Below, one piece after another: positions 7,026 to 47,654 of a DNA stretch of 64,000 nt. Position numbers and translations under genes: made by a program. Origin of the DNA: Membranipora membranacea. Its lineage: Eukaryota > Bryozoa > Gymnolaemata > Cheilostomatida > Membraniporidae. The notes under the pieces were generated by a model, which searched no databases, had not been told where the DNA came from, and was given only the letters and a program-made list of their open reading frames with translations. The stretch lies in NCBI GenBank assembly GCA_914767715.1, contig OU612065.1, positions 8,372,001-8,436,000 on the forward strand. Reading direction: 5' to 3'. Positions within the stretch are counted from its first letter, which is position 1; the number at the start of each line of letters is the position of its first letter.

Positions 7026-7055
7026 AAGACTAGATCACAAAGCAAAGATAAAGGA

Positions 7056-22500: not shown

Positions 22501-25500
22501 TTAAACCGCAGTTGATCCTCTCAGAAAAGTTGGCAAGTTTAAGGAGTTTTGCAATACAAGCAACAGAGGAGTATGTATGTTGGATGATGCGTGTTCCAAT
22601 TTGGTACCATCAAGAAAGATTTTAATATTCATTTTGTACCACAGGAAAAGTTATATGATGTTTGAAAACTTTTGTAACAGCAGAGAGTAGAGAGTAGGAA
22701 GAAGAGCCATGTGTGGTATGTATCAGTCATTCACTAACCTACTTTCTGTTAGAACCAAGCTACAGCAGTCTCGCACCAATGAACTAAACCTCAATGAACT
22801 AAACACCAATGAACTAAAGGTTTAGTTCATTGCTCTCACCTTCATTATCAAGTGCTGATCTTGCGCGTTATGTTAAAATGTTGTGCCAAAATTGCTATGT
22901 ACAAGAACCTTACGAAATGCAGTACTATGCTGCGCTCTGCTAAGATTGGCAAGATGATAATGGAAACCAGGCTTAACACAAAGTGGGAAATTTCCACCCT
23001 TATTATTCCATGTGGGCATAAATACTTTACCCTTCCACATACATATTTTTCCAGATTTGTGTGTTCAAGGTAAACAGCGGCTTCACTGAGGACAAGCCAC
23101 TCATTTAGCAGGTTATTACATGGCCTTATATGCAATTATCATTTCATACCTGATATAAGCCCTCTTTCAATACAATGCGATTTAACAGAACAAGAAACAG
23201 ATCAGCTAGGTAAATGCCACATTTTTAGAGATGAACTTTTCAGATCCCGGAGTTTACCTATGAGAAAGGTGCAAACTGACCCTAGATAAAATTTTACCTT
23301 CTTTCCTTATTCCTATTAACGCAAGATTCAAACATGGTAATGCCTCCGCATTGGTGGTTGCTGTCCATATATAGTTTGTAACCGTACAGCTGACATAAAT
23401 TTACATAACGAGGGTCAATGATGTGCATGCGCAGCACTGAGGCAAAGATGACCCTCAGCATTCGAAAGCAAGATATTCAACTGTCTGCTGTTGGTGGTCT
23501 AGTTATCTTCTCATGAGCATATCTAGCCATTTTTACTCATTTTTACATGTTAATCGAGCACCGGTTTTTGCTTGTTCCCTATGGCACATTTCTACCTCTT
23601 CCTGCAGTTATCGAAAACCAAAGTTTGCCTCTCCCATGCACATATGTGTTGAAAAGTTACTTGTAAGTTACATGTGGTCCCTACATCATCTGATATGTGG
23701 GTCATAAATAAAATAACGACTCTAAGAAGCTCCTGAGTCATCATTTTGTCAAAATTGAAAGAAGATGCCTCCCTGCATCCTGGCCAGTTGAGACCTCTGA
23801 CACAGATTTTTTTTCAGTTTTGCAGGCCTAAGTGTTCGTTTCTCAATGTTAGAAAGGGGTTTTCAAAATAGGTAAGGCTAATATATATAGACATGTGTAC
23901 TAAGAATACTTGCGCCTACGCATATTTATAGTTCCATCTATTTGTAATTCCTAACTGCTAACTTCCCACCACTAGGAATATATTTAACAATCACACGTGC
24001 ATGTGGGCATAGGAAAGTCATGAGGGCATTGATATACTCACGTGGCTATAGCTGCTAGTGATAAGCTCGAGTTGGGACACCAAGCGACACACTTCACTTT
24101 GTCTGTGAATGTCAAGGTCTTCATACATCGTCCGGTCTGCACCTCCCACAATTTAGCTGTCTTATCATCAGAGCCTTAGAATATTCAACAGGACAAAATA
24201 TGTAAAGTTCTGTAGCTTACTCTACCATGTTCTCCCTTAACCTTTTGACACATTGAGGTTACTTATAGCTGATATCTCATCATCATTGGTGACACATATA
24301 CTTAGAAACAAAGTCTCAAGCATTGCTTGAAAGCAACCAATACTTTTCTATGGAACATAGGTTGAAAAACCTTTGAAATAAGTTAAAGTTTGAAAACGAA
24401 AATTCAAACTTATAGTAGGTCAAACCATGGATACATGTTGATGAAACAAACTTGCTGATAACCAAAAGTGTGTGAGTTATCATGAAGGACTTACCTGAGA
24501 TCATCCATTGACCAGAGGGGTCTACAGAAATCTTTCGTACCAGGTCTGTGTGTCCAGTGAACACCTAAGGTAAAATATGACATTGCTAGTATATGGATGT
24601 TACTAGTCACAAAAAACATGCAGAAAGTTGTCTGCTGGCAACACCGACAAAGTGAGCTAGATGACCTGACCCACGTAAAAATTGGGAAAATTTTTCTCCG
24701 GACAAAATAGGAAACAGCTTGAATAAGACTAAAATTCTTTGGGCTTCCTTTCCAAAAAATTTCCGTTAACTGGTTCAACAGCTATTGATTGGGTACGAGA
24801 TGGAAATAAAACACATTAAAAAGTTTTGGGGAACTTGCTATTTAGACCAAAGTTTGTTGCTGTCAAGCCTAAGGTGATAGGTCATCAATAATGACAACAT
24901 ATTGTGTAGAAGTAAGATCAATCACCGACAGGCCATCTCCAAATATAAACATTATTATAAGTCATGTGACACGGATTGTGTCTTGTCAATATTAACTTAC
25001 AATAGCTTCAGTTGTTGGGAACGGCTGTAAATCTTTAGGCTGTGGCAGTTTTGGCACCAAATCTTCAGGATTGACATTCATCTGAAAACAAAAGAAACAA
25101 TATTTGAGAACAGGACAATTCCGATATGTAATGCTCAGTCACAGACATTGCATGTTCATCTTCAGGGTAATATACAAGACTACCAATATATCATAAACTT
25201 AGAGGAGCACAAAAATCACCATAACCGCTGTAAGTATAAGAACATAATGTCATCCTTAATCAATAATAATACATTTTATTGGTATCAATTGCAATGGTTT
25301 TTTTGAGGAAAACTCCTTTTTTTTCGGGCAACGTCATTTTGTCCGAATCACTTTTTGAGACATGTCGACTGCTCAGGTTAAGATAACAAAAAATGTCAGA
25401 GCGTAAAACTTCAACAAATTGTCCTTTTTATGGCATTCATAATTTGGAATTTACATATTTTATCATTCGTATCTAGAATAGTTCGAGGTAACCCCTAGCC

Positions 25501-28500
25501 TTGGCACACGGCCATTTTAAAAAAAAGTGGCCACTTGACAAGGCTAGGTAACGCCTTTTGTGCAATTCAAGCCCAATTCTTTGATGAATTTCATTCACAA
25601 TAGCTTACCCTCATTTTCTGTTGTCGAGGACACAAATACAAGTCGAGACATCTTTCAAACCTCTCATTGATATATCTTTTATAGGCAGGAACAGCTCTCA
25701 TCGACGAGTATTTCTTTGGTATAAAATTCTGTCTCCTATCTTCGGTTTCTGTATCCTGCCATTTATCGAGCTCTTGTTTGGAGAAGAGATACTCAGCTGG
25801 AGGGTTATAGGACTCAGCGTGACCTGGTAATACCATCTTAGGCGCTGGTATATGCATCTTCAGTCTGAATCTATCGTGCTGGTAAAAAATGTGGAAAAAG
25901 TGAGAAGTTTGTAGAATTAAGACGATCAAAGTAAATAGTAAATAAAACTACAGGGAAAGCCTTGATAAACAACTTGTAATTTCGTTATTGTGGAGCGACA
26001 CTTTCTTATCTTGATGAGTACGAAAAACGTCATACTGATTGTGAGATTGTAAGATAACAAGTTGTCATATTGATGGTGTTAACAGTTTCTTCTCCTAGCA
26101 AGTGTTTAATAGTTTACATGTGTCAGGTGGGAAGTCAATCTTACCATACCATGTTTCATTCTCAAATAAATATATCGTTGTGTGAACAAAGAAATATAAG
26201 AGCGGACACTATATTATTGACAAGCATTCCAGGTGTTACTGTGCACGTGACATTCAAGATCTCGTCACCTTCAACTCGGTGTGGTTTCAGAAAAATCAGA
26301 CACCAATCCAATCACCGCACATTGAAACAAAAATAAAAATGAATTTTGGTGCTTTGCTCTGACTGTGATGAGTATTTTGAAGAACAAGGTAAGCAATCAT
26401 TTGACTGCTAGAATACCTCATTGCTATAACCATTACTTGCCGCTTAGACCTCAGAAAATGGAGATTCTCATCGCTTTCACACTTTTTTACTAATGGGTGC
26501 AACTATCACATAACACAAAAAAGAAGAAGTGAGCCTACAATCGCTCCCGTCCATGCTGCAGTCATGAGCTGATAATCCACTTTATAGTATCCAAATCAAC
26601 GTGAACAAATTGAGAGGAATCAAATCCGGAATCGAATCTCTGTACTGCATGATTCGTTGGTTAGATAATTTAATATGCTCAGCAAAAGTATTCTGTATAT
26701 GACTGGCATACTGCAGGTGAGCCTTCAGCAATCAGTGAGCAGAGAAATCACAGTACAGAAACATGCAATAGGAACTAAAAAATTTGTTGAAACACACCTC
26801 ATCCTCGTTTGTCCAGATATCATAATAGACCTGATCGTCCTTCTGTGCATCTTCTAACTCCTTATTTCTCTGTGAGGGTGTCTTCATCCATCCCATCTTC
26901 ATACTGTGGACCATCTTACCAACCTGTCAGTCAGTAAAGATCAACACAAATTTGAGTCACAATGTTTGTGTTCCAGTAGAATTCCATCAGACCACTCACT
27001 CACATCGATTAATTATGTTGACAAACTTCAATATTTTGTCAACCTAGTCAAAATCAGACTGGCAGTAAGTCAAAAACGAAAATTTCGGTCAAAACAAGTT
27101 TATCTGGATATGATCTATTATTTTACCTTCAATCTTTCCCAGTTGGAAGGTATGAAGCTACGTTTACTCTCGGGTCGATTGCTGAGTGGATGTATCATGG
27201 TATCCTTCTCAAACGCTGCTGGCCAGTCTTCCATAAAGGGGTTCACATCTCCGTCAGCAAATTTGCCTTCTTTGAGTCGTTGAATAACAGCACAGTCCTC
27301 TCGAGATAATACAATATTCTGTCCAGTCTGTGGGTCTTTCACTGTGCGCCTACAAAGTCGACAATATCACTGAAAAGTACTGAGGGGAAAAGGTTGTTCG
27401 AAAATTGTCCTCAGTTATTTAAGATAATATAAATGTGTTCCTGAAAGTCCAATAACAATGACTCGCATAACGGCATAGAAATAGACATAGGACTCATAGC
27501 ATTGATTTCATCTGTTTTCTCGATTCTTACCAGTAATCAGGGTTTTCAGACTTCTCAATTAGGTTGTCTAACTCATCCCCAGTTTTTGGCTTGAGGATCT
27601 TTTTACCCGAGAGATCGTATCCTATATGTGGATACTCCTCATACCACTCCTTGGGTACATTTCCAACTGTGTTTCTCAAGTCCTGGGTGAATAGAGAAAA
27701 TGATGTTATCAATAAAAACTAGTATTATAGCTAGCTAAAAGCAAACAGGGGGCACTGAACCATCTGTCACATTGTCTGACTATCATACCGTGACATGAAA
27801 CCAAAACAGCTTTTTGTTTTATGTATAAACTGACCTCTTCATCAGATGAATCATACTCATACTCGTTAATTTTCGGCAGAGTAGCGATGTTTTCTTTTGA
27901 AGCACCATCCTGAAAAGTAATAATGACATATTGTTATTGGTACAAATTCTTACATTGTTACATCGCACATTTCTTTTAACTGGATAAATATTTACTGGAT
28001 TAACTCTCTGAATTCAGCAAAATATTGACAGGCGGTAAAACCTTAGCTCAGTTATTGATAACAGTTGAATCACACATGGATTTGACTTAATTCGTTTGTT
28101 GAATTAATTGGGCAATTAATGAATGCATGTCATCATGGTGCCTATTTGTAGATAAGGTTTGCATGTTGCTCATCGTACTCCTTGTTGTTAGGAAGTCAGA
28201 TCACTGACCCCAGTGGATGCCAACAGGTTTGTCTCCGCACATATGCTCGTAATGACAAGCTTACTTGAACACACCTGGTTCTGATTATTTTCTCCTTCAT
28301 CGCTGTCTGATAACCAATCACTATCTTCTTCCTCGTCTTCATCATCCTCAGAGAGTCCAGAGAATTCGCTGCCACCACTCTCTTCTACTTCACTATCTGT
28401 ACTATCACCATCTCCGCTTACATCATCAGAATCAGGCTGTGTATCAGCGAGAAATAAGGGATCCTCTTCTTTTTCAGCATCCTACAAGCATAAAATGGTG

Positions 28501-29066
28501 GAGATTGAGTGTTCCAGTGAGAACCAGTTTTATGCACATAATATTAAGCCCTAGTGAATTAATAAAAATAGTATATACATATATATATATATATATATAT
28601 TTCTCTCTTCACTATCTATCTGTTACTGTGTGTACTGTATTTGACCATGGATATATATAGTAGAGACTATAACTCCTTGATTAATCTATATTGTCAAAAC
28701 AAGGAGTTTATCAAAAATACGTGTTGCATTGCTGTAGTATATAAAGAAATACCAGATAGGCAGACCCATAGGGCAGACTTAGTCTTGACGCAGAGTGTGA
28801 CAACATGGCTCAACTTAACTGGAGGCATGTTAAAATTTATTATTCTATATATATATATTGTTGTGCCAATCCAGCCACAGTGAGCAATGATGAATTAATG
28901 GCCACTGGCGCCAAGTTACGGACAGGGTTTCATGATGGATACTGGGTAGAGCCTATTAAAAAGAGATATGTCATATTACCTTGGTTTTCTCAGGGGCTGG
29001 ATGGGTTTCTGAGGTGGGTTTCTTTTCAGAAGAAGGCCTCTCACGTTTTCTACTGGAGGCTGCCAT
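19558..29066 (-). CDS. BOP1: BOP1 ribosome biogenesis WD-repeat protein
   Basis: Sixteen coding exons join in phase to 750 residues (human has 746): 28980-29066, 28275-28481, 27835-27909, 27531-27682, 27127-27349, 26798-26923, 25609-25878, 25001-25081, 24495-24564, 24042-24174, 21932-22035, 21434-21522, 20796-20981, 20205-20392, 19988-20095, 19558-19711. The N-terminus is charged with an Asp/Glu/Ser tract. The BOP1NT domain follows ([27 protein letters not shown]-like [44 protein letters not shown]). The C-terminal half is a WD40 propeller ([40 protein letters not shown] at the end). BOP1 (yeast Erb1) forms the PeBoW complex with PES1 and WDR12 in the nucleolus, needed for 28S/5.8S rRNA processing and 60S maturation. 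It shares a short intergenic region with HSF1. Confidence 0.97.
20727..20746. repeat. Partial copy of the AGACTTAATAAT palindrome
   Basis: ATAGACTTAATAATTAT in a BOP1 intron matches half of the palindromes at 42958-42994 and 57896-57928. It is short and may be coincidental in AT-rich DNA. Confidence 0.25.
21262..21345 (-). ncRNA. Weak C/D-box snoRNA-like candidate in a BOP1 intron
   Basis: On the minus strand inside the intron between coding exons 11 and 12, GATGATGA (a box C match) is followed about 65-70 bases later by CTGA (a box D match). Introns of ribosome-biogenesis genes often host such RNAs. The terminal stem is poor and I see no clear guide stretch, so this is only a candidate. Confidence 0.12.
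22359..22484. mobile_element. MITE family copy 3, internally deleted
   Basis: In a BOP1 intron, TTGGTCTTTCAATTAGACAA at the left and an inverted TTAGTTGAAAG..GAAAGACCCCA at the right bound sequence that matches the centre and right part of 17124-17385 (CCCAAATCGCTCACTC, GATTTTGGCTGTTT). It is about half the length of that copy. Confidence 0.6.
22780..22832. mobile_element. AATGAACTAAAC palindrome cluster
   Basis: Three direct copies of CAATGAACTAAA and one inverted TTTAGTTCATTG lie together in a BOP1 intron. The flanks CTCGCACC and CTCTCACC differ by one base, like a decayed 8-bp target duplication. The arm sequence is the same as in the palindrome at 4932-4959. Confidence 0.5.
25494..25548. 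repeat. 55-bp hairpin in a BOP1 intron
   Basis: Arms CCTAGCCTTG and CAAGGCTAGG enclose a second inverted pair (GGCCA..TGGCC) and an A-run. AGGTAAC occurs at both edges, which could be a target duplication. Probably another foldback insertion. Confidence 0.45.
28572..28600. repeat. (TA)n microsatellite in BOP1 intron 1
   Basis: A run of TA units with one interruption lies between the first two BOP1 coding exons. Confidence 0.88.
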
Positions 29067-29275
29067 TTTGGTTGTAGACAAAGATCCTACTGGATAAAAA
29101 CAAGAACAATCCGGGCGCACATACAAAACTACCCTCCGATAAAATTCACAATTTTCATATTTGATTTAGGTTCCTAAGCAATGTCATGCGCATAAGCACA
29201 GTTCCGATCAATCATACAATTAGTGAGTGTGAGACTAAAAAACTTTGTTACACAAAAAGAACAATAACTTTGAAA
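29067..29275. promoter_or_regulatory. Shared BOP1/HSF1 bidirectional promoter region
   Basis: Only 209 bases separate the BOP1 start codon (minus) and the HSF1 start codon (plus), so both 5' UTRs and promoters must be here unless upstream exons exist. I see no TATA box at a convincing distance and no well-formed heat shock element (alternating nGAAn). A more upstream in-frame HSF1 ATG at 29186 exists inside this gap. Mammalian BOP1 and HSF1 are also divergent neighbours. Confidence 0.7.
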
Positions 29276-32200
29276 ATGGATGGGAAGAGAGTGAAACCTA
29301 TTGAGCACCCTTCAATATTTGTGCAACCTGGAACTATTCCTGCTTTTCTCCTGAAGCTGAGGAATTTGCTAGACGATCCTGATTGCGACCATCTTATTTC
29401 ATGGGACCCAGTAAGTGCAGTTAGATCATGATACTCATGTTGATACCTAATCCTAACCTAATACCTAATCCTAACGAAGTCGAGTGTATTCACATAACTT
29501 AGCCTTACTAACTAGTTGTAAATAAGCACTGTATGAATCGATTGGTGAAAAATTGTCTTCACCCAGGGATCTATTAATTAGGCCTCCTTGCTGCTGAATA
29601 GCTAGCTTGCTTGGTTTATTGCATCAAACAATTTTATACCTTGATAGGCTAAGACATATTCATATATGGTAGAATGCTCACACTCTGTACAGTCATGTTT
29701 CCTTTCAAAACGGCAGCGTACATGACTACATTGGGTCCTTATTGACCTATACTAGGCCTGCAACAGGTTCTGTAGACATTAACAGCTTTATTAAAGGCAT
29801 GTTCCGATAAACTGTTGTTGGGTGGAGCAGCGTTTTACATTGTTAGTAATGCTCTTGGACGCCATTTCACCTAAACTCATAACCCAGCACACTCTTAGCT
29901 GACACAGATGAGGCACACAGCCTCTCTTCCTGGTGATGCTGACAACTTACTTGTTGTAAGAGTTAGTTGACAAATATTCCATATTCCATCCTTCATGATC
30001 TGATTTTTTTCAGGATGGCAGCAGCTTTCACCTGTATGACCAGACATTATTTGCAAAAGAGATTTTACCACAGTACTTCAAACACAACAATCTGGCTAGC
30101 TTTATACGACAGCTCAATATGTGTGAGTATGAGCGCAAGAAGACACGAGGGAGTGCTCTCAGAGGAGAGAAATAAGACATGCTAGGCATCAATCTCCTCT
30201 CTTTTATTCTTGCATTAAAACTTTTTCACTTGTGGATATCGCTGTTACACGTTAATCCTAGAAGTTGACACACTCAGCAAACAAGAGTATCAATAACATA
30301 AGTTTCAATAATCTGGTTCATATATTGGTGATTCATAGGGCTAGAAAAAAAACAGCACATAAAAAGTTACATGATTGACTGCAAATCGTCATTAATAGGC
30401 TGCGTTGAGATTCAAGTCTGTGCATATATAACCTGACATGCATCATTTAATGCATTCAGATGGCTTTAAGAAGATCTCGACTATAGAACATGGTGGACTG
30501 CACTCAAAGGATGACATGGAGTTCCAAAATCCATATTTTGTCCGAGATGAAGCTGGACTGATGGCCAACATAAAAAGAAAGGTAACCAATTAAAACCTGA
30601 CTGTTTTAACAGGCTGGGAAAGTAAAGAACTTTGTTTTTTCATCTGAAAATGACAATATGAGTGATACACCAAAACCCTGGACATCCTGTCGCAAGTGCG
30701 CCAAGCGTCTGTCTGAAATGATTGTTACTCTCACCACAAACATTGGTATTCACAACAGGGCCTAGTAACCCAAATATTGTAATTACTCTAATCCTGGCCA
30801 TAAAACATACCCATGAGAGTGGCTAGTGACCCTGAGAGTACAAATATTGCTCTAATCCTTACACTGACAACAAAATTACAAACAAGTTCCCTGTATTAGC
30901 GTACCATAACCCCACCATTACCCCGGTACCATAACCCCAGTACTATTACCCCATAGTAATACATAAAGATGCAGTGTATCATATTGAAAAAATTCATATG
31001 CAATGAGGTTATAATAAAATATTAAATGTATAGATAAATATAAGGACTCTTATTTGCATCATAATATATGACATAGGCCTACATTCATCTTCTTAACATG
31101 ACTATGTATGCAGAACATTGCAGGTGAAAGATGAATATAGATTAATCGATGTCGATGACTTGCTTTTGATTCACCTTTTATCCTTTTTTGAGCCGTGTCA
31201 GATAATGTCTCATTTTGTATCTCTGATCATTTCATAAGTAACACATCATAAGAAGAGAAAGTTTTCAAACGGCATTCAGCATTGCCATTTGACCAGGGTC
31301 AATTTATCATATCGTTCTTGATATTTGTGTGTCATAGGCATGCTTTAGGTGTTACCAGTCAACACCTGACTTAATTTTAGGTTTTGTATTAAGCAAGCAT
31401 GAAGATGCTGAAGGTGTTTAGACCAGTTGTACCTTCAGGTTCCTTTCTATTACATGACCAATTTGTACCAAAGCTCTATTCTTTTAGAATCCAAGAGCTG
31501 AAAGAACAATTAGCGTGAGTAGACAATGGTTCACAGTATATTCCCTGGCAATCACTGAGTGAAAAATCGTTACCATAGCTAAATAAGTTCTTTCATCTCA
31601 GGTCTTTGTTCATCTCAAACAATTACTGCTTTGAAAGAATGTCTAGCACACTTTCAAAGCTCCATGGTGATTGTCTGATAATAATGGAATTACTTAAATT
31701 GTAACCCCATTTTCTAGGTTTGTTTGTGTGCAGGGCTTTATCACCTCAAGAGTGGTGGTTCCAACAAAGTCTCTATAATGTTTTAATTATTACCTAATCC
31801 ATTGACAATGACAATAAGAGCAGGTGTGAATCAATATGAGGTACAGGCACTTCTATGTCTAGCTCATGGCCACCATTATACCCTGGCGCATCATTACTCC
31901 TGTAGGCAGCTGCAATAATAAGCCTTTGCCCTGTCTCAATACTGTCCTTGATTTAAATAAACTCAGGAAAATTTAAAAGATACCAATGTCCAATCTATAC
32001 TTGATTAATTTCACATTCCTAAGACCTCAACTGAGATGGCATATCATATTTCCAAACTTATTTCAGGTAGTTTGAAGGCCATTGAGTTGATGATAGTTTT
32101 CGTAATTTGGCAATTCCTTTAACACCTTGTTTGTACTTTATCGTGTTTAGCAAGGGTCTCAAAGTATACGAGATAAGCTAACTGAATATGGAGCTCTTCA

Positions 32201-35200
32201 GCCTACCCAAGTCGGCGAAGTATTGGTTGATGTTAAAGACTTAAAACATACACAGGACAATATGAGTGAACAGCTGGACGTCATGAAGAGAGAAAACAGT
32301 GCACTATGGAGGGAGATTGCTTCCCTGAGACAAAAACATACACAGCAGCAGCATATTATCAATAAGGTTAGTGGTGGGGACCTGCTGTGAGCTTCTGGCA
32401 GCAATATTAAAAACTAGATGTACCTTATGTACTTTTTTAATCACATATTCCTAAGGACTATTGATTTCTTATCTGGTCAACCAAGCCTGCCTGGTAATTA
32501 TCAGAAATTGATCACACAGTTTCGTTTTGATGTGATGACTCATGTAACAGTGTCGATAGCTTGGAAACTAGGTGATGCTTGTGGTGTATCAAAAATTCTT
32601 TTGTGATACAGTTGATACAATTTATGATGACTATGGCAAGTAATAGCCGTAACATGAAAAGGTCTTTACCCATGATTGAAGTCGGGCCTTCGTCAAAGTC
32701 AAGACGTCCTGAACCTCCCAACTACTCTACATCTGACTCAGGCGGCAGTGACCAGATACAGCAGGTATTTTATTGAATACATAAAACTCTTTCTGGTCAG
32801 GTTATGAAATGACAAAGCAAATTTAGATTTGGGTGGTGGAAATATATTTGGTTACATGTCCTAACAGCTGCTCATTATGTAACCATGTCTGCTTCACAGT
32901 TGTGGTATTCAATTAATTAACTCCAAGTAAAGAAATCTGTACTATGTGACCGATGAGCAAACAGTGAGAGGGTTTAACACAAACACTCTCATTGTTCACT
33001 TGGTAACGATCGAGGTTGTCTAGTGGTCTCTGAAGACTGTGGTTGTCCATCTGTGATCTGGAGAGTATGGTCTCATACAACTACCCTCCCCACACTGTAG
33101 ACAAATCTTTTTGCCGTATAACACAGAAAACATTAGTCTCATGACTTTGTTAGGTGACTACCTCTTATGTGATATGAAAAAGCTGCTTTATTCTACTCTT
33201 CAATCCATTCGCATTAGAATTTTCTTGTAATAATTATGTTGGAAATTTGTTGGACATCATTCCTCATCTTTTTACCACCATGATTGCTTTATTCACATGA
33301 AATATAAGCAGTACATAAAATGCATGTTTGGCTTTACAATCTCCCATTATATAGAGTAATATATTGTCTGGATCAGGGCACAGTGTCGGCTCATCGACAG
33401 GTCATGGTATTACAATCAGAGACATAACTGACGATGATGAACTTATCTCACCCGATCTTCACAATAACCCAGCAATCGAGCCATCAGTGAGTGCTGGAAT
33501 ACAATTGGCAACATCTCTCCATAATTAATACAAATAACCCTCCATTCCTCCTGTAAATTATGTGGGGCATGAACTTCCTCATTCACCAAATATTGCTGAG
33601 CAACTTTCATTTCTAAAAACACCACACTTGTTTGGTTTCATCCTGTGAATTGATAGATACCATTATCCAGAAAATCACATTGGCAGTTTTGCCAATGCTC
33701 AACCTTACATTTCAAGAACACCACTGTTTCTTTAGTCTCTCTTCGTGTTTTATCACAAAGGCTTGCTTTTGAAAATGTTCAATGACTAAGCAAGCAGGCA
33801 TGTCCTGGCATCAAGTTGGGACCAAATGATAATCCTTCCCAGTTTCTTCTGTCAAGCATCTGTTGTCACTTCTAGTAGCATTAATAAAAGAGACCGCATT
33901 GATGCGTTTTAAATGTGTTGAATCCTCAAACCAGCAAAATTTGATCCTATCTGTGCTACGAATGTGTCATATTGGATTTCGCTCAACTAAATTCCAATTG
34001 GCATCGACACCGTCGTTCATCTGATCTTCAGATTTTGCCATTCAGTGCATGTATGTTAATTTGTCATTCAGGATTTGCTGGTCGCGATAGATGATGCCCC
34101 TGTACCCACTACAGTGAATGATATCCCAGTGATGTCAGGGCTGGACTGCAGCTCAACTTCTGGACCGCTGGTTGCTAGAAGTCCTGGCTCATCGTTCAAC
34201 GCTGGTCTCGTCAAAACTCAGCTATCTGAGAATGTACACGAAGTACAGACAGACATAGATATACTTAGGGAACTGTTTAGCACCGACTCACTGAATGTCC
34301 CACAAGACACATTTATGGATGTAAGTGATGCTGGTCAAGGTTTTGGAGTTTAACAACAGTGCTCTATACATAAATATAGTCAGCATCCGCATCAATATTT
34401 GTTGATGGTATTACTAGCTTGAATTACTCAACTGTTTTGATTGGGGATACCAACCAATGTAGACTAGTTGGTACCACTACTGTAAAGACTTGTGTAAGTT
34501 ATGGCATTGCTCTCATAGCAGGCAGAAAAGAGACACTCTCAAATATACATCTTATCAGATAAAAGTATCTACCGCTGTAATCCTAAACAAACATTCACAC
34601 AGGACTACCTTGACGCATTCATCTATCACTTTACTTTCAGATTTTTGATCAGCCTAGCAGCGGCGCAAATTACCAGCTCACACCTAGCTCTGTAAGTAAG
34701 ATATTGATTTAAAATGACTCCTAAGGTGTGCGCTTGTAATGTGTAATTGCTGTAACAAGAGGAGCATCAGCACCTACCATATTATTAGCCCCCATCCATA
34801 TTGTGTTCAACCTTGTCACTCCTGCATGATGTCATTCATCACATATATTTGAAGACATGCTCTTTGTGATCTAAAGCTTCTGACAGGTAAATCATTTGTG
34901 TTTTGTAATAAAGGGTTGTGTAGTTCAGAGCCGGTAACCCAAGTTGTTGTGCTGTTACAATCTGAGCAGGGCCTAATTGAGATTTAGTCATCTTGTTGGG
35001 ATGATGATCTCACGCATGCACATATGTTGTTCTTTGCTTCTAGAATTTACCAATACTGGATCTGGATGAATTGATGAAACAAGACAGCAGTAGTGAGAAA
35101 AATGGAAATAAAAGTAAAAATCAGCAGTTATCTGAACTTATGTCCCCAACCACTGACTTAGATGGTCTGATTGGAGGCATGATTACTGTACACGGAGGTC

Positions 35201-35989
35201 AGCATAACACTGTTCCAAATTTATTTCTTTCAAAGACTCAGAAAAGGGTTTAAACATAACAGTAACTCACATGTATACAATTTAGCTGATATCATCCAGC
35301 ACCTTAGGCTTTTCGCTGCTGTTTATTTGATATTTGGAGCCCAGTGTTTGCACATTGTGTGCCCTTTGAGCTATTCGATACACTGACTGAGGTCAAGTTC
35401 ATGCAAATGTTGTGATAATGTTCAACCCACCATTACCTTCGAAGTTGTTGTATTTGTTGGACAATGGAAGCGCATCCTTAAATATCTAACGCCCATGTCC
35501 GCTCTTACAGAGAAAACAAGTCCCTGACTGGTGAATTACCAAGACACAACCTGCTCATAGTTTAGAGCCAAAGACTTAGTAAGGAAAGACTTTTTTTTTC
35601 TTGTTTGTAGCAAAGATACAAAACTTTACTTAGGCCTCATGCTAAGGCAGTATCAAAAATTCCATTACGGAGTATGCAATGAAGGAATTGAGGTGGGATG
35701 GCTCAATATTGAAACCTTATAAAGTACCAAAGAACTGCATCAAGCCAACGGTTCTTTATCACACACTTTCATAGTGTCATGGTTATAACGACCTCACTAC
35801 CCTCTATTGAACTAAGGATTTCAGGTCTTTAGAATATAATTACTGAACTTATTAATGTTGTCTTTCTATTTCCTTACAGATGATGATCTAGATGGGGCTC
35901 TGAAAGATTTGATAGAACCTATTGGCCAATCTGCTAGCAGTGAGGCAGCTATTTCATCTCAGATTATCTCCAGTAATGACCTTGATTGA
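29276..35989 (+). CDS. HSF1: Heat shock transcription factor (HSF1-like)
   Basis: Eleven coding exons join in phase to 485 residues: 29276-29410, 30014-30122, 30460-30581, 31488-31514, 32151-32366, 32612-32764, 33355-33486, 34072-34320, 34641-34691, 35044-35197, 35880-35989. The winged-helix DNA-binding domain covers about residues 18-120 ([31 protein letters not shown]). The HR-A/B coiled coil that drives trimerisation covers about 140-215 ([30 protein letters not shown]). The C-terminal half is Ser/Asp-rich with acidic and hydrophobic clusters ([38 protein letters not shown]), as expected for regulatory and activation regions. HSFs trimerise on stress and activate chaperone genes through heat shock elements. 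I chose the ATG at 29276; an in-frame ATG at 29186 would add 30 residues. Exon 4 is only 27 nt. Confidence 0.95.
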
Positions 35990-37762
35990 TCCACTCTCTA
36001 TTTGTGGTGGATGAGAATTTGAAGATGGATGTGACAGATCCTGCCAAGCTGGTGGGGACAATAAGGTTTTGCTCCGACTAAGCTGTGAAAGTTGCGAGAG
36101 ACATCAAAATAAGTTAGCTATGGGGAGACTGATATTCTAACTTACTCAATTTAACATGCACTCAGAAGAATAGTAAAGTTTCACATTCTGTTCCCATAAT
36201 TGGCCCATCACTGCAGGTCAGGTTATATGTGGGTATGTAACTATCCCTCCTAAAGCTCCATGTCAAATGGAGTAAATAATTAACTTCCCATTTTCTGTTG
36301 ATAAATTTCTTACACTATTTCTTTTTAATCAAATCTGAGCATTCATGTTCTGCCATATTCATTTTCTCAAATGTGAATGTCTCTAGTACTTACCATAGGA
36401 TAGCATATTTAAAAAAAAAGATTAATTCTTTGTTAGAGACTTAGATAGGCCCATCCGAGGTTATCCAAAAATAGGTTGTTGATAAACTTTTCTGTCTACA
36501 AAGAAGGGAACACATCTGTGGGTACAATCACAGAGTTTGGCTGTATGTGGCTGCAGTGGCTGGTGGTAAAAAGCTTCCCATTCAATCTTATCCCTGTGAA
36601 CACCAGGAAACTCTACAATAAGAAGGAGCTGTGTAATTATTTTGTATATTGACTGTAATATACTTTGATCATCATTATTATTATATCGACAGGTATTGCA
36701 ATATTATGTACGAGTCTGAAATTTGATATTTTTCTATCCTGATTTGAAACTTTGTGTGTAATTTTGCTTTGAGACTATTATCAGTGATTTTGAGTTCTAT
36801 TTTTAATAGAAATACTGTGCATGCCATGCTAACTCTGCCTGTGTGTTGTGTTTTGAATATATATTTGAGTTATCATCCTGTATTCGTGGTAACACTTGCT
36901 CAGTTAATTTGGGTGGTTGGTACTCCTAATTGAGTTTTTCCTGCACAACTAGTACTGGCCAGATATACCATTGTGCTCAAATTATGATTTCATGTGGGTT
37001 ATCACATCCAGTCATTGTAATGCAATGAAGGGTGAAAAGTGGTCAGCTTATGACAGCCAGAAGTCTTATTATATATTCCATCTGTTAGATCAAATCAGTA
37101 TGTTAAGCTGCAGCTGTTCTCTGTCTAAGGATACAAGACTTACTGCTAAATGACTTGGTTGTGACACTTGGTTTGCACAATGATTTACACCTCGGAAGGT
37201 CTCTGCTCTCCTCTAGCACCTATGTGTGACATGCCAATACAGCTTTCACAGCTTTTTGATGGAAATTTCTTTTGAATTTACCATTCTCTGTAATAGCCTC
37301 AGTTCTCATTGTATGACGTTTTGGATGGGTACGGTAATGCAGGGCTCCTACTAATATTGTTGAAATCAAGATTGAGGGCTATGGATATGTTGATGAGCTT
37401 TGATACGGTATCGCATGTCACTGGGAGAGCTCCTTATTCGGCTTAGTCCTCTGGAGTGTCTGGATGTTCGCTGACAAACTCCACAAAGTTCTTAGAAGTG
37501 TAAGTAGTCTGACTTATAAGGAGTCAGGTTTTTGTGTGTGTTGAATTGGTTTATTGTGGTTTATCCAACTGCGAAATTAGAAATCTTTTGAGATTGATTC
37601 TGCAAGGCTTGCAGGGCACTTGGTACTCCTAAGGCTGCAGAGTAATTGCATAGCTTTTGGGAGGCACATTATTTTGCAATTGTGAACCAGAATCAATTAC
37701 TAATATTGGTCCTCTCTCAATTGTATCCTTGAATACTACGTATATCAATGTGTGTCTTTCAG
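35990..37762. other. HSF1 3' region and upstream region of the HSF paralogue
   Basis: I searched this interval for the missing DNA-binding domain of the downstream paralogue (RQLNMYGF-like or KHNN-like coding) and found none in any frame. It should contain the HSF1 3' UTR and the paralogue's promoter. The TTTCAG acceptor before 37763 implies an upstream exon for the paralogue. Confidence 0.5.
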
Positions 37763-37792
37763 AAAATATTACAAATTATTAGGGCGGACATC

Positions 37793-40700
37793 ATGGCTGA
37801 TCATGTCAACTCCAATCATCAGAAAAACTCGGAGCCACCAACCTCGAACTCAACAAAACCACCAACAAACGACATGGAGATTATTGTTGAGACTAAAGCT
37901 GAAGATGATGTCAGAAGTGTTGGGTCAAGTGGCAAGAGCAAAAGAGTCAAGGTATGTATGAATAAAACTGGATAAATAATTCTGTCCCTCTTATTTCGAA
38001 AATTTAGAATACCTTATGGTTGGAATTGTTTTGCTGAGAAAAGGCTTCATCAATTCATTTAATCCAACAGGTTTAATAAACAGAAAGGCTGGTAAGTTTT
38101 GCCTGAATGCTTACAAATTCATACTTATCATCTTGTTTCACTTTCAAAAATAAAGTTGTGCCACTTATGCCAATGCATTGAGGTGGCCTTTTCATTTACA
38201 AGTTTGAACATATTGAAAATGTAAGAACCTCAGGGTCGCCTTCAGCGCTGGATCTGGTTATTTCCATGTATGGAAAGCTAAATGGAATATTTATTTGCCA
38301 TCAATCCACAACAACATCTTTACCCATCACCGCTCGCGTACTCTGGTATGGAAATTTCCCCAACACCAATACAAAGACTCTACATACTATTGTCCATCAA
38401 AACCCTCCGAGCTCATCTTTGTAAATAGGCATAGAAACATGACTGAGAGTTTGCCGTTTTCCGGAAAAGTTCCATGAGGCTGGAAAAATCAGCTCAAATC
38501 ACAACAGAGAATTATGTTATGGCAGTTTCTAATAATTGATTTGTGACACAAAGTGTTATTTTAGTCAGCAATTGGCAAAAAGTTGCTACCCAGTGTGTGT
38601 GGCCATGTAGTTTGCATTTAACGCTACCAAACATTCTGTCACTCTTAAATTGATGGTATCACTTGACCTATAATTACTCACATTATAATATACTTATTCA
38701 ATCCATTAATAAAAATTCAAAATGTTTGAATTAAGTCTAGATTGTACTAGAGCTAAGGAAAGGGATGTGTATCGACTATCGATGTGTATCGATCAAGATT
38801 TATTGCTATTGTAGATTCAAAGTTTGGCTAAGTCAGCAAAGGCGGGTGATGCAATGAGCTTGACTGAAAAGGCCCGGGAGGTCATTCATGATGTGAAAGA
38901 TATTAAGGAAGCTCAAGCTCTCATCACCAACCAGCTTGAGAACATCCGAAAAGAGAACACACATCTCTATGGCGACATGTCTTATGTTCGAGAGAAAATA
39001 GGCCAACAGGCCATCATTGTTGATAAGGTTAATACTTGTTATATGTGTCACATTTCCCATCTTTCTATTTCTGCTCAGATGCCAGCGTATGAATACGATG
39101 AACATAACCCCCAACAGTGTCCTTGTATCGCATACAGCATGTGAGCCTTCAAGAGAGGGCAAATCCTAATTTCTATTATTATTGTAAAATCGAAAGAAGG
39201 CCTACAATATGAACTCACAGATTGCAGGTCTTCTTCTGATTTTTCCACGATAACATAATATTATTTGATCATATCAGGCCATAATAGCATCAAGGTCAGC
39301 CATCGTCTAATAGCAGTAAGTGTTAATATAATATTTGTGTGAAATCACAATTATGGATGGTTGTAGCTCTCCAGCAAACAACAATTGAACTTTTTCCTAC
39401 CGTCATTGAATAAATTAAAAAAACGTAATGGCATCATAATACAAAAAGTTTATGTGATAATTCCCACCATTTGAAATTCTACGATATTTTTTTATGATGT
39501 TGGTCAGGTCAGTGCTGGTAGATATTTATCATTTCTCATTTTGACTCCGACAGTCAGTACTGATATTCTTCTGCTGAAATATTGCTGTTATATCAGCATC
39601 CGATGCTCATGTTATCTAAGTAGTTTTAGTTGACAAGAATATGCTCAATGACTCTGTATATGGAAACAAACGTAATGTATTAGCTTCGGTCACTTTTACC
39701 ACATTTACTTGGTAAATTTAGCAAGTAGCTACTCTGTGCTGATGCTTATTGTTGCGGCGTATGGCTGCTGAGCGCACCTACTGGCTGTAAATTTCAATGT
39801 TGTTAAAAAGTTGTGAGCCAATAAGCAATTGACTGGTTTTGGAATACTTTATAATAGACCTGTAGGAGGAATAGTTTGCCTTTTCATAAATACGTGAAAT
39901 AGTGAAACCTACCTGCTAACGATTATATATATCATATTTTTACTTGATATAAACTCCCACCTATGCTTGCTATAAAATTAGTGCTACTGCTAGCTAAAAG
40001 CTAAAACAATCTCTAGCTAATATATTCTTGTCTGGGTACTTTTCTATAATTAATATTAAGGATAACAACTGGGAAAAAGAGAAGATATTTTGGCCTCTTA
40101 TAAATTATTAAAAAATGTCAGATCATTAAAATTTTGATGGGAGTGACACTTCTTAGCCATACCTCTTTGTTTTATAGAATATAAGGTTGGAAAATTAGGC
40201 AACATTAATTTATTAACTTCATCGTAGATGGTGATTGTTTCACATAACCTATGCCCTGACACCAAGCTCTTTTGACATTTTCCAGCTTCTTCACTTCTTG
40301 ATGACTATGATTGGTGGAAGGCGAACATTTCTGAAGAGATCTTATCCATATCTGCTTGAAGATGACTGCCTCATTGAACAAAAAGCCAACGCTCTGCAAT
40401 ATGTTCAAGTCACTGAGTCAGCAACGAAAATTGTAATTTTTTTTTTAACACTTTTATTGGCAGTCTATCTCATTCCAGTAGCGGAATGTTTTCCGAATAG
40501 TGCCGAAAAAAAAAGGAAATGGAAATGAAGGAAAAAATAAGGAAAGCTTGAGAATGAAGATGAGTTAAAATAATTCAATATAATATATATCAAAAAAAGT
40601 TGAATACTCAACATGGTACCATGGTATTGACATTTTGGTTTTGGGAAATAAAATTGCAAATTTCAGTTAAATAATTATTGGCCAACTTCAAAAGTGTATG

Positions 40701-43700
40701 GTGTCACTTGCAAAGCTACATGAGTCAAAGTTTTATTGAAGTTGCTGTGCAAACCACCATCAAACTTTGCTAAATTGCTATCGTAGGTCAGTATATTTAA
40801 GTATAATAATACATTAAAAGCTTGTGTTTGTTTTGACAAAGAGGTCTTTTTTTCTGTTTTAGGGAGATCAGGTATCCTTTGTGGCTAATCCAACTTCCAC
40901 ACTCGCTATAACGGATGAGCCAGATCTAAACGAGGTAAGAGTCTTTCTCATTTATCCAGGAAGGCATAGTCTAGTTTGCTCTGCTCGAATTTTGTCATTA
41001 CGCCTATGAGTTTGGGTATGTATGCACATAATTAACTATAAATTTCTGTCTTTTGTCAGCCTCTTGTGGTTGAGCCCGTTCTCCCCTCAGCTATCGGCGA
41101 ATTGACAAAAAAATCGGAACAGAACAGAAATGACAAGTTGGAAAAGACATCTTCTTCCTCAAAGGCGTCTGCAGCTGAGATAACAATGGTTGCTGATGAG
41201 ATCGGAGATGATATCAATGCTCTGAAGGACATATTGAAGGCCAAGACTGGTATGCACTTGCCTAAATACATCGTCGAAAAGGTAAGAACAACGTCAGAGG
41301 AGGACCACCTCCCGCAGACTCTTATTTAATGTGTGCAAGGGTGTGTGTGATTTTACATAAGTATGGTTCACACTATCGATGCTGGGTGTCAAAGTATTAC
41401 CACACTGTGTGTTTTGATACACTGATTACACGTTGAACAATAGTGGCAGACAGTGTGCTGATAATATGTCCCATCACCTAGATCATGGGTGGGCAACCTT
41501 TTCTTGAAAAAGGCCACATCTTACGCCGGCTCAACTCGAAAGGCCGCAACATATCTTTCAGGGATAAAATTGGAACTGGAGTAGCAATTTTGGCACTTCC
41601 TGTTTTGTAAAAACTAAAACAGATTTATTTCTAAAAACTGCAGTATGTTGCAAAAACCATCAACTCAGCGGAAATACTGGTTTATCTAATCTTCTTGAGT
41701 TTTGTGATGTCATTTTACCTCATGATTTGATTGTGTACATGTCTGTATCCCCATGTTTCATGTGTATGAAAAAAGCGCAGGGTAGGTGCGGGAGGGGTGC
41801 TGTAGCGCCTTCCCAGGGGTTAAAGTGTAAATAAAGTTCATACAGGACTGTTTTGATGGAGAAGGAAGTATTTCCGCGGAGCGAAATTTTTTTTTTAAAA
41901 ACTTTGTTCGTGTCCTGTCAAAGTTTTCCCCTCACAGCTCCCGCCCTTTCTCAAAGGAGGGAAATTTTTGCAAATGATTGTGAAATGAAGAATTCAATAT
42001 GGAACATTTCAGCCATAATGCAGGAGCACTTGTCACAAAGGGAATTTTTGCCCACAGAGGCTGTTATGCAAAAAAATAAAAATTACTATAATGTTAGAGA
42101 AACTTGTAATTTTAACATTCAAAGGTCACTGTTTTGTGTTATTTCGAAAGGACAACTTGAAAAAGTAGTAAGAGTGGCTGGGAAGCTAACTACATGCATA
42201 ACACAGATTGGCCACTATTTAGAAATATCTTGAGCTTACAGAGCGCTATGCATACTTGGTTCTCCACATAAAAAAGGGGAATCAAAATTAATGTATGAAA
42301 AGTTTTACAGGCATAAGGCCACAATTAGGCCGCAAAAGATTACCCATTAGGCCGCACTGGCAAAAAGGCCGCAGGTTGCCCACAGCTGACCTAGATGATA
42401 CGGACAAACTGGGAATCATTATGAAATCTTGTAGAGTGTTACGAAAGGGCTTGGAATGGTGTGACATTGTGTCAATGTCTATCCATATTCCACAAACAGT
42501 AATGATGGTAAATGCTGCTTGAATCAAGAAGTAAAACTAAACTTGTCAATGGATAACATGACTTGTTGCGGTATAACAAATTGTTGCTATAGTGGTTCTT
42601 ATATTACAGATATTTGATAATTATGACACAATGGTGCCTGCTGTACCCACGGCTCATCTGGTATCTGGATCAACTGGCCCTTCAGGTTCTACTTCAGAGA
42701 AAGCTGGATCTATGTCTATATCTTCCGTTACTGGTATGTATTATCTCTTGAACTCCTTGCTGCTGGTGATAAGATAGTCAGCACAGATTCCCATTGATGA
42801 ATTTATGTGCGGTTACATGACATCTTTGCATTGCAATAGAATATGCCAGAAAAATTAACATACCAAATCTATTTTTGATACAATAACAAGCCAGCGAGCA
42901 CATCTTTCATCTTCATATCAAAGTCATCATTGTCACAGATATAGAATGGATATTACCATGACTAAATAATAATAATAATTATTATTAAGTCTATGGATAT
43001 TACCCATAATTTGTCACTCACAATAAATATACGCTCAGCCACCTAACAACAGGGAGCTTTAGTATATTTTGGAGTTGTTCTCTCAAAAAAACCCAGCTAA
43101 GCCCTAATAAGAAAAACATCAATGCTAATACCCCTAGATCAACCGGTCCAGGTATTGTGACAAGACAAGTTAGGCCTCAGCTGTGCATGATTTAACTAAT
43201 GGAGGGCATATGTGTATACCATCTGAATTCAGGATCAAGGTCAACCTCTGCGCTCTTGGATAAAGTTAAATTTGGCAATACCAAGATTGTCAGTTCCAGC
43301 AATCTCAGTTTTAGCCTTGTAGCTCTGTGTCAATGTAAAAAAGACATACCTAGCTGAAGTAATGAAAAAATACATATCACCAACTTAATCAGCCATGGAA
43401 GGTCTGCCAACATCTTGATTTCATTTCCTGTTTCCATTGGTAAAATTTCTTCTCTAGCTATTAATACCCTGTTAATAATTTGTATTATTTTTATAGCGCA
43501 TGTTCTGGAAGATCTGCAAATTACACAGCAAGAGTTAATCGACGTCGCAGCCCAGACACAGAGCGATAAGTTTCAAGAGAGGTCCAAAATACCTATTAGT
43601 GTTAAAAAGGTACAAGTGCTGCTTGCTGAGGAAATACCACCAAATGCTGTTGAGATGCCTCCTCCCAGACTCAACATTGATAAAGGTAAAGAGCAAGGGA

Positions 43701-43750
43701 CCGGGTCTAGTGGTGGGGGATCCAAATCTAAAGAAAATAACTCTTCATAA
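37793..43750 (+). CDS. Tandem HSF paralogue without a DNA-binding domain
   Basis: Seven coding exons join in phase to 396 residues: 37793-37951, 38815-39027, 40286-40432, 40863-40934, 41060-41281, 42610-42733, 43497-43750. The first 53 residues are polar and end in a basic KSKRVK. Residues ~74-124 (EVIHDVKDIKEAQALITNQL onward) align without gaps to HSF1 HR-A/B, with the same intron position before L-L/I-x-F-L/M-M-T-M. Later, IVEKIFDNYD matches HSF1 FMDIFDQP, again with an intron just before IFD. No winged-helix sequence exists in it or in the interval up to HSF1. HR-A/B trimerises HSFs, so this protein could form mixed trimers with HSF1. The upstream frame is open to the acceptor at 37763 (KILQIIRADI), so an upstream coding exon is possible. 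Poly(A) signals: 44628 and 44689. Confidence 0.85.
41484..42388. mobile_element. Non-autonomous hAT-like DNA transposon
   Basis: A 905-bp element in intron 5 of the DBD-less HSF gene. Ends are CATGGGTGGGCAACC and the inverse of CAGCTGTGGGCAACC, resembling the CAGNGGTGGGCAAC termini of Charlie-type hAT elements. A perfect 8-bp duplication, ACCTAGAT, flanks it at 41476-41483 and 42389-42396. Subterminal GGCCGCA motifs repeat near both ends. An open frame at 41853-42233 matches no transposase I recognise, so it is probably dependent on transposase made elsewhere. Confidence 0.85.
42958..42994. mobile_element. 37-bp AT-rich micro-palindrome with 10-bp duplication
   Basis: AATAATAATAATTATTATTAAGTCTAT-type palindrome in intron 6 of the HSF paralogue, flanked by GGATATTACC at 42948-42957 and 42995-43004. 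The same arm sequence recurs at 57896-57928. Confidence 0.55.
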
Positions 43751-45380: not shown

Positions 45381-47046
45381 TTACATGTGAAAGGAATGGT
45401 TGGCATAAGGTGGCCTGTATGGCGCTGTAGAAACACTGGCAGCAGATCTAGAATGGACATCTCTGTGCCTGTTGCTGTAAAAATATCAGAAACACAATGT
45501 AAAATACCTCTAAAACTCGCTCTAGCAAGCAGCTCTTACAAGATTCGAATTTTGGGCTAATGATTGTAGATCCCTAAATAACTGATTAGTTTAGCACATG
45601 GATACAACTTACAGGATACTTGCTGGAGTTGGGCGCTGTCCATGTTGATCGATTCCTGGCTCTTGTCTCAATGTATACCTCCATTTAGATGTTACATCAG
45701 GTTTCAAATATCTCATAGCATATCCAGTAAATGGGGTGTCTGCAAGAGAAAAATTTTCTTGGTTCATATTTTTTTATCAATGAATATTTTGTGTGAGGTA
45801 ACAATTACGTGGATTAGGCATGTGTGATTATAGTAATCATTACATAGCCACATCAAATTCAATTACCAACTTTTTGTTCTAATATATAATATATAGATAT
45901 ATAATTATGTGTTTGGTGTTAATTTCTCAATATTGCTTTGTGCAACATAATTTAACTTGAATAGATGGCTCTACTGACTTGCAGTGTCTGGATGCTCAGT
46001 CAATCTTATATTGAACCTTTCTGGACATCTGTTCAAGAAATCCGACCAATCCCTCCTTGCGTTTCTACAACAAGAAAGAACATGTCAAATATTGTTCTAC
46101 GCACATGGGAGTGATAAAAATGACAAAGATATATAATTTGTGCATTTCCATTTTTCTCAAAGTCATTAGATACACACATACAATACAATCTTAATTCAAG
46201 TGCTAAGTACAAATACAACAATTGTTGATGGACCACTTACTTCAGCTCAATCGGTGAGTACTGGTATCGGATATCTTTTCCTTCATTTTCTGGGTTCTTT
46301 AACTGGAACAAAATAGGTGCAGTGTCATGGCAACAAATATGTTCCTGTTGTATATATACTGCTCAGCTACACTCTCATTCATGGTGAAATGGATTGAACA
46401 AGACAGCTTTGCTATTGCGAATGATCGTTTCCATAAATACTGTAATTATTGCCATCTACATACCATATGCCTTGTCCTTAGGGCTGCAGGGTCCACAGTT
46501 GATGCTCTTTTGAAGTCAGCTAAAAGATAACATGGAATCGTTGGAAAATTGATAACAGAACGCTTGTGTCTGTTTCTTGAGTAAGTATGTATATAGTTTT
46601 AATTGGGAAATAAAACTCTCCAAATGAAAAGCTCTATACAATGCTATGGAAATCTTGCATAGCCAGTGAGTTATCCAGCTCCGGCCTTAATTCAATAAAA
46701 TTTGCTGTGTGATCAATTAGCTCCAGTAACTATTATATAAACATTAAGACTAAGAGTAGTATATTGCTAATAGTAATAGTTAACATAAGTCAGGTGGCAA
46801 CTCACCAAATTCTTCCTCTTGGCCTTCCAGAGTAGGCAGAGATGTTCTGCTATGCTCATCAGGGAGCTTATGTAAAACCTGGTCTCTATCTAACTGCCTT
46901 ATAGTTGGTAGTCTAGGATGAAAGATACCTTCTTTTACTGACACAAGTTGAACCCTCCTGCCTGCTGGAAATTGGTAAGAATATGAAGGCACACACATGT
47001 CCTTGGGATTGTCATGCCTGTAAGTTGATACATCTATCGTTGTCAT
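45381..47046 (-). CDS. Uncharacterised protein, probably ciliary or sperm-associated
   Basis: Six exons join in phase to 221 residues: 46806-47046, 46464-46519, 46241-46302, 45979-46064, 45613-45739, 45381-45474. Every junction has a GT-AG pair and consistent phase, so the gene model is well supported. The protein has no signal peptide, membrane span or enzyme motif. It is rich in Pro, Arg and aromatic residues and contains PTIRQLDRDQVLHKLPDEH, NARRDWSDFLNRCPERF, GYAMRYLKPDVTSKWRYTL and a C-terminal RPTPASILNRHRDVHSRSAA. Small, extended, aromatic-rich proteins like this often line or decorate ciliary microtubules (CFAP/SPMIP group, for example TEPP-like). That assignment is inference from style, not a recognised family match. 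Confidence 0.72.
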
Positions 47047-47654
47047 ATCTCCTTCTGATTTAAGAAATTAGCAATAGTTGAGATAACTACAATAGCCTAC
47101 TGATATACAGAGCAATGCTATCCTAGTCTAACTTCTCTTGGATGTATCTCAAGTCTTCACTAGTTTCACTCTGCCTAGCAACCAAGGAAGTGACATCATG
47201 AAAATAATTGACCTTTTCATATAATGAACCTCACAGAAGTAACACATTATATGTTGTCTATTGTTTTATTAATAACATAATATTTGCTTTTTAATATAAT
47301 CTTAATAAAACAATATAATATTAGTTTTGAATGACAAAAAAAGAAAGGTTCTTAAATTAATTAAAAACTTTGTATTGTTAAAAACACCCTTTTAAAATTT
47401 AAACTTTAATTTTTACTAACCCAGTTTGGAGCCGGAAAACGTGAAGAAAGAAGAAGTTTCCTTTTATTATTACAGTCATTACCTGGTTAGTTTTAAAGCT
47501 ATTAGTTGGTTATATACTGCCCAAACCCCACTGTGTAAGCAGCAAGCATACTATATGGGAAGGAACCTGGACCTCAAGCCAATCAAGATTGTATTTCAGG
47601 TTTCATGGTCTCAAAAAAGTCATCAGAAATCTAAAAAGAAAATAGCCAAGCCGC

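Follow-up and report, generated by a model that had tools for sequence, protein, structure and literature searches.

A tandem HSF1 paralogue without a DNA-binding domain, its counterpart on a second contig, and their possible role as subunits of HSF1 trimers

Results

Genes of the window

The window, the whole 64-kb stretch of DNA analysed here, corresponds to C1:8372001-8436000 of an assembly with 339,339,785 bases in 18 contigs. It contains a heat shock factor gene (HSF1), the exons of which are listed in Table 1 together with those of the two copies described below. A full HSF_DNA-bind domain (PF00447) was detected by Pfam in HSF1, with 110.4 bits and profile positions 1-100 of 100, and the part of the gene that encodes this DNA-binding domain (DBD) closes with NIKRK in phase 0. 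The acidic-hydrophobic character of HSF1 exon 10 is typical of activation domains. BOP1 (BOP1NT pieces; about 20200-29080, minus strand) is located head to head with the start of HSF1 (29276, plus strand), as in vertebrates, which would suggest old linkage. The window neighbours found by Pfam (among 7020-13385, 2661-2960, 46780-47067, and 51644 onward) include pieces of a SYDE-type RhoGAP with PDZ and C2 on the plus strand, and also a GCN5-related acetyltransferase and an SPMIP8-like gene, both on the minus strand; the start of an hnRNP K-like gene (plus strand), which Pfam did not match, was recognised only by eye. Elsewhere in the assembly, contig C18 (14,741 bases) is mitochondrial, and its COX1 read sensibly when AAA was taken as Lys and AGA as Ser, in accordance with the invertebrate code and against that of echinoderms.

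Table 1. Positions of the exons of HSF1 and of the two copies (HSF1 and gene 2, positions in the window; C4 copy, positions on contig C4)
Feature	Position	Strand	Remarks
HSF1, gene model	29276-35989	+	eleven exons
HSF1 exons 1-3	29276-29410, 30014-30122, 30460-30581	+	complete winged-helix DBD (PF00447)
HSF1 exon 4	31488-31514	+	small
HSF1 exon 5	32151-32366	+	HR-A/B, 72 aa; phase-0 introns on both sides
HSF1 exon 6	32612-32747	+	donor uncertain; alternative donor after 32764
HSF1 exon 7	33377-33486	+	
HSF1 exon 8	34072-34320	+	HR-C
HSF1 exon 9	34641-34691	+	IFDQ exon
HSF1 exon 10	35044-35197	+	activation-type (ILDLDELM ... DLDGLIGG)
HSF1 exon 11	35880-35989	+	last exon
Gene 2	37793-43750	+	seven exons, 396 aa; ATG at 37793, stop ending 43750
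Gene 2 exon 1	37793-37951	+	53 codons, rich in Ser and acidic residues before a basic SGKSKRVK; phase 0 at its end
Gene 2 exon 2	38815-39027	+	HR-A/B coiled coil, 71 aa; corresponds to HSF1 exon 5; phase-0 flanks
Gene 2 exon 3	40286-40432	+	end of HR-B (LLHFLMTM) and a basic segment (LKRS); corresponds to HSF1 exon 6
Gene 2 exon 4	40863-40934	+	linker; no HSF1 counterpart established
Gene 2 exon 5	41060-41281	+	HR-C-like segment DDINALKDILKAKTGMHLPKYIVEK; assigned to the position of HSF1 exon 8
Gene 2 exon 6	42610-42733	+	IFDNYD after phase-0 intron, like IFDQ of HSF1 exon 9; ends in phase 1
Gene 2 exon 7	43497-43750	+	last exon, with stop; preceded by a phase-1 intron like those of HSF1 and the C4 copy
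C4 copy	24426120-24422953	-	six exons, 311 aa
C4 copy exon 1	24426120-24425974	-	
C4 copy exon 2	24425616-24425416	-	
C4 copy exon 3	24425253-24425065	-	
C4 copy exon 4	24424610-24424410	-	
C4 copy exon 5	24423299-24423203	-	
C4 copy exon 6	24423053-24422953	-	

Gene structure and coding status of gene 2

An earlier note on this DNA had proposed, directly downstream of HSF1, a gene with intact, in-phase, and stop-free exons, encoding the trimerisation region of HSF and the following LLHFLMTM segment. This gene (gene 2) was found as described: all introns are GT-AG, the summed exons are divisible by three, and no internal stop occurs in the open frame, while exons 2 and 3 match exons 5 and 6 of HSF1. 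The alignment score of gene 2 against the window HSF1 was 157, which was reached by none of 1000 shuffles (maximum of 77), and homology starts at HR-A/B and extends in the 3' direction. The gene structure is also common to HSF1 and the copies: an HR-A/B exon with phase-0 flanks; a K/LL or K/LI junction; FD after a phase-0 intron; a last intron in phase 1.

Codon scores, trained on the HSF1, SYDE, and BOP1 exons from the window, were compared with overlapping stop-free background stretches (19 to 1235 per exon). Six of the seven exons scored above every stretch tried, and the score of exon 1 was reached by none of 163; that of exon 3 was reached by 7.5% of 214 stretches. The donor after exon 3 (gtaatt) is weak and non-consensus, and the end of this exon is therefore less certain. 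The start ATG carries A at -3 and G at +4. Simulated neutral substitution at 0.1 per site left the frame of gene 2 intact in 22 of 2000 runs, and at 0.2 per site in 2 of 2000. A chance open reading frame was ruled out by the alignment with HSF1 against shuffles and by the coding scores. No relation of exon 1 to the DBD was detectable, nor was homology between the first exons of gene 2 and the C4 copy (the score was reached by 1251 of 2000 shuffles). Judged from its sequence, gene 2 is a true paralogue of HSF1 by descent, and in evolutionary terms belongs to the HSF family.

A second copy on contig C4

When the HR-A/B exon of gene 2 was compared with the assembly (E up to 0.001), two places were found: gene 2 itself and C4:24425425-24425607 (minus strand; E of 1.8e-5). 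The gene model at the latter place (referred to as the C4 copy) is open and has an ATG exon of its own, and its intron phases are 0, 0, 0, 0, and 1. All five pieces scored exceeded every stop-free background stretch tried, and neutral substitution kept the frame open in 35 (0.1 per site) and 2 (0.2 per site) of 2000 runs. The best Pfam match of the protein was to a coiled-coil family (E of 0.0007), but falls short of the family cut-off. The HR-A/B exons of HSF1 and the C4 copy, used as queries with E up to 10, each led to HSF1, gene 2, and the C4 copy and to no other place, and of these three exons only that of HSF1 was seen beside a DBD. That a gene of this kind also exists on contig C4 lends further weight to the view of gene 2 as an intact HSF paralogue under selection, with no DBD found and with a largely conserved coiled-coil core.

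Absence of a DNA-binding domain

The DBD of the window HSF1, the human DBD, and the three DBD exons singly were used as queries in tblastn with a word size of 2 over the 64 kb. These queries recovered the three DBD exons of HSF1. No DBD was found in the window outside HSF1 (best other match, E of 0.099), and a missed DBD exon in the introns of gene 2 or in front of it was rejected by the same search; neither was any relic of a DBD found in the interval between HSF1 and gene 2 (35990-37762). Similarity of the DBD to the gene 2 and C4 copy proteins was at the level of shuffles (353 and 450 of 500, respectively, reached the score), and no HSF domain was detected by Pfam in either protein. No winged-helix DBD of the HSF type was thus found in either copy, and by this defining domain they are not HSFs. 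For gene 2, tblastn, Pfam, and the shuffle tests all agree with the earlier note, which had reported no winged-helix domain in the product and no missing domain in the introns or the preceding 1.8 kb. The note had also described the domain as lost: its absence stands, while loss is indistinguishable from an origin in which only the 3' exons were duplicated and a new first exon was gained.

In the 28 kb around the C4 copy, the best match to the DBD had an E of 0.22, and a DBD beside this copy was accordingly rejected for the stretch searched, which extends about 17 kb before the gene and 8 kb beyond it. A search of the assembly with the HSF_DNA-bind family (E up to 10) returned four places, none of them on contig C4: two are HSF1 exons, and the other two are domains within a single further locus on C1. 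Since the short first DBD exon of HSF1 was not picked up in this search, isolated short DBD exons elsewhere could escape it too. The other locus, the only further one with an HSF DBD found in the assembly, is a single open frame of 358 codons with two tandem HSF-type DBDs (C1:7181717-7182415, minus strand), where HR-A/B was not found. As far as found, the assembly therefore contains one gene with both DBD and HR-A/B, two with HR-A/B and without DBD, and one two-DBD frame without HR-A/B.

Coiled coil and C-terminal regions

By homology to HSF1, both copies possess the HR-A/B trimerisation coiled coil. The heptad register was chosen as the one that maximises the hydrophobic fraction, and it was the same for all six sequences compared. 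In this register, HSF1 and each copy were similar at 15 of the 16 core positions, and the three polar, buried core positions (Q, N, and Q) were identical in all six. Core positions were more alike than the others when the two copies were compared with each other (p = 0.010), and when human HSF1 was compared with gene 2 (p = 0.010) or with the C4 copy (p = 0.005). Against the window HSF1, no significant excess at the core was observed (p = 0.12 for gene 2 and 0.06 for the C4 copy); pairing with HSF1 is therefore not proven by this comparison, and homotrimers would need the same core. The identity between gene 2 and the window HSF1 was 39% over 61 HR-A/B columns, and the HR-A/B exon of gene 2 was modelled by AlphaFold2 (three-sequence alignment) as one helix at residues 2-70, with a mean pLDDT of 88.9. 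These comparisons support the view that the coiled-coil core expected for entry into HSF1 trimers is largely conserved in gene 2. Conserved residues of HR-B are changed in both copies, from LWRE to LYGD or LYRD, and these shared changes could reflect a pairing preference of their own.

In the C-terminal part, the score between the C4 copy and HSF1 was reached by 1 of 2000 shuffles, and that between gene 2 and the C4 copy by none of 2000. Similarity between gene 2 and HSF1 was weak (83 of 2000), in an alignment that does not pair HR-C with HR-C, and human HR-C matched gene 2 without significance (1268 of 2000; 32 of 2000 for the C4 copy). The assignment of HR-C in gene 2 consequently depends on the C4 copy and the shared intron position. 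The earlier note had mentioned C-terminal HSF-like motifs in gene 2; the IFD exon and the intron phases agree with HSF1, and the HR-C-like match to HSF1 gains support only through the C4 copy. By inspection, no evident counterpart of the activation-type exon 10 of HSF1 was present in either copy.

Age, selection, and relationships

Over 61 codons of HR-A/B, HSF1 gave pS/pN values of 0.86/0.36 with gene 2 and 0.78/0.38 with the C4 copy, and the two copies gave 0.81/0.32 with each other. Saturation is thus seen at synonymous sites and not for replacements, indicating that purifying selection has acted. At the DNA level, blastn between the loci detected nothing beyond matches of 19-25 bases with an E of 0.28 or worse, which indicates that the duplications are old and speaks against a recent one. 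In a FastTree analysis of 61 columns and six sequences (three of them human: HSF1, HSF2, and HSF4), gene 2 and the C4 copy were joined with a support of 0.998 next to the window HSF1, and the human proteins were outside. Eight HR-A/B residues in these columns are common to both copies and absent from the four HSFs compared; as a counter-signal, gene 2 shares six residues with the window HSF1 alone, and the C4 copy shares three. Should the two be sisters, the simplest reading is that their common ancestor already had no DBD, and selection between them would have acted on DBD-less proteins.

No relative of gene 2 was found at E up to 10 among 5377 candidates from a large protein set that is suspected to be poor in animal proteins, and the solved structures searched included no matching HSF entry.

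Discussion

Proposed role in HSF1 trimers

Human HSF1 mutants impaired in DNA binding trimerise with endogenous HSF1 without binding to heat shock elements, and K80Q HSF1 is dominant negative, according to one report (PMC3704536), in which three DBDs are also suggested to be necessary for recruitment to stress bodies and DBD-less HSF2 is cited as impairing the relocation of HSF1 and HSF2 to these bodies. Furthermore, HSF1 and HSF2, which are about 50% identical in HR-A/B, form heterotrimers (PMC12366260). Considering these mutants and heterotrimers, a natural DBD-less protein with HR-A/B would most simply be a subunit that lowers the number of DBDs per trimer. We slightly favour, with a probability of just over one half, that gene 2 and the C4 copy are DBD-less paralogues entering HSF1 trimers as a dominant-negative brake or a dose-dependent tuner. 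The brake or tuner suggested for gene 2 in the earlier note is in part supported.

The copies would be HSF1 paralogues cut down to a regulatory core: HR-A/B, the basic segment, and the HR-C-like region. Their predicted products would most probably join HSF1 via HR-A/B, giving mixed trimers with one or two DBDs that would bind poorly to tandem heat shock elements, and fewer DBDs and activation regions per trimer would act as a brake on, or a dose-dependent tuning of, the heat shock response. Provided that the HR-C-like region functions as it does in HSF1, entry of the copies into trimers would itself be stress-controlled. For both gene 2 and the C4 copy, we infer expression, a protein product, mixed trimers, and inhibition. 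Perfect three-unit heat shock elements were absent from the window and from the 28 kb around the C4 copy. The chances appear evenly balanced that the copies represent a small natural family of DBD-less HSFs at at least two loci on two contigs, which derived from HSF1, lost or never received the DBD and activation exons, and have long served as trans-inhibitory or tuning subunits.

Other interpretations

It is rather unlikely that the copies are real proteins functioning outside HSF1 trimers: as homotrimers, as scaffolds for chaperones or partners of HSF (decoys freeing or holding HSF1 indirectly), or as a tissue-specific coiled coil, for example of the germ line. The copy-specific residues at 8 of 61 HR-A/B positions are as expected of a pairing specificity of their own, and retention of the HR-C-like region and basic segment is consistent with such a role. 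The core layers are nevertheless still HSF-like, the tandem copy adjoins HSF1, and Pfam names no domain above the cut-off for another function.

It is improbable that gene 2 serves HSF1 as an alternative 3' module, in which case read-through transcripts would join HSF1 exon 3 or 4 to exon 2 of gene 2 or to an acceptor at 37763. The product would be a complete HSF that differs from HSF1 in HR-A/B and C-terminus, and the DBD-less form would then be one isoform or none. HSF1 exons 3 and 4 both end in phase 0, in frame with exon 2 of gene 2; an uninterrupted frame runs from 37733 through the ATG of gene 2, and hence from the plausible acceptor at 37762/37763. No AATAAA or ATTAAA occurs on the plus strand in 35990-37762, a lack shared by 108 of 2000 equally long random windows, although variant signals, such as AGTAAA, do occur there. 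Moreover, gene 2 has an ATG exon of its own with coding-like codons, and the C4 copy, with the same plan, lies on a contig where no DBD was found. Ordinary cis-splicing could not supply the DBD of HSF1 to a copy on another contig, and the ATG exon of this copy argues for a stand-alone DBD-less form.

Given the lack of AATAAA and ATTAAA before gene 2, HSF1 itself may use a variant polyadenylation-type signal or be read through.

A functionless, decaying remnant of a duplicated HSF gene, with which the missing N-terminal domain, the one weak donor, and the one exon of weak coding score would be compatible, is highly improbable for gene 2, because its 396-codon frame is open despite saturated synonymous divergence, six of the seven exons have coding-like codons, and a second intact copy exists. 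With neither stops nor frameshifts and with selection evident, a pseudogene was ruled out by pS/pN, the coding scores, and the neutral simulation, and the earlier description of gene 2 as functional and not decayed accords with the intact frame, purifying selection, and codon usage.

Comparison with known systems

Id/extramacrochaetae and plant microProteins are relatives of transcription factors that keep the oligomerisation domain, do not have the DNA-binding part, and act as dominant negatives, but belong to other folds (HLH and others) and not to HSF trimers. HSBP1, a coiled-coil protein, binds to HR-A/B of HSF1 and lowers its activity; it is small and, unlike gene 2 and the C4 copy, is not an HSF paralogue. 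The copies resemble animal HSF1 and HSF2 in HR-A/B, the basic segment, and the HR-C-like region, with intron positions of the 3' half as in the window HSF1, whereas known members carry a DBD and the copies have neither this domain nor, by inspection, an activation-type exon. HSF5 without HR domains and HSF4 without HR-C, as described in two reviews (PMC12366260, PMC13072094), are also members in which a module is missing; however, they keep the DBD and have no such regulatory parts, the reverse of the copies. Comparable too are the laboratory mutants of HSF1 (DBD deletion and K80Q) and DBD-deleted HSF2, which have HR-A/B without DNA binding and trimerise with normal HSF1 (PMC3704536). Those proteins were engineered, whereas gene 2 and the C4 copy are natural genes of old divergence at two loci.

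No natural DBD-less animal HSF was found among the literature matches listed (titles and abstract openings) or in passages of the two reviews (PMC12366260, PMC13072094), and the evidence for novelty is weak. One HSF is the number usually given for invertebrates (PMC13072094), and exceptions exist (PMC12366260).

One full HSF, two DBD-less relatives, and a two-DBD frame would mean that the functions of DNA binding and trimerisation are split among genes, and surveys based on the DBD would miss genes such as gene 2 and the C4 copy. If the proposed role in HSF1 trimers is true, a natural dominant-negative HSF would be available for study, the gain of the heat shock response would be settable by subunit stoichiometry, and DBD-less HSFs would stand to heat shock factors as Id proteins do to bHLH factors.
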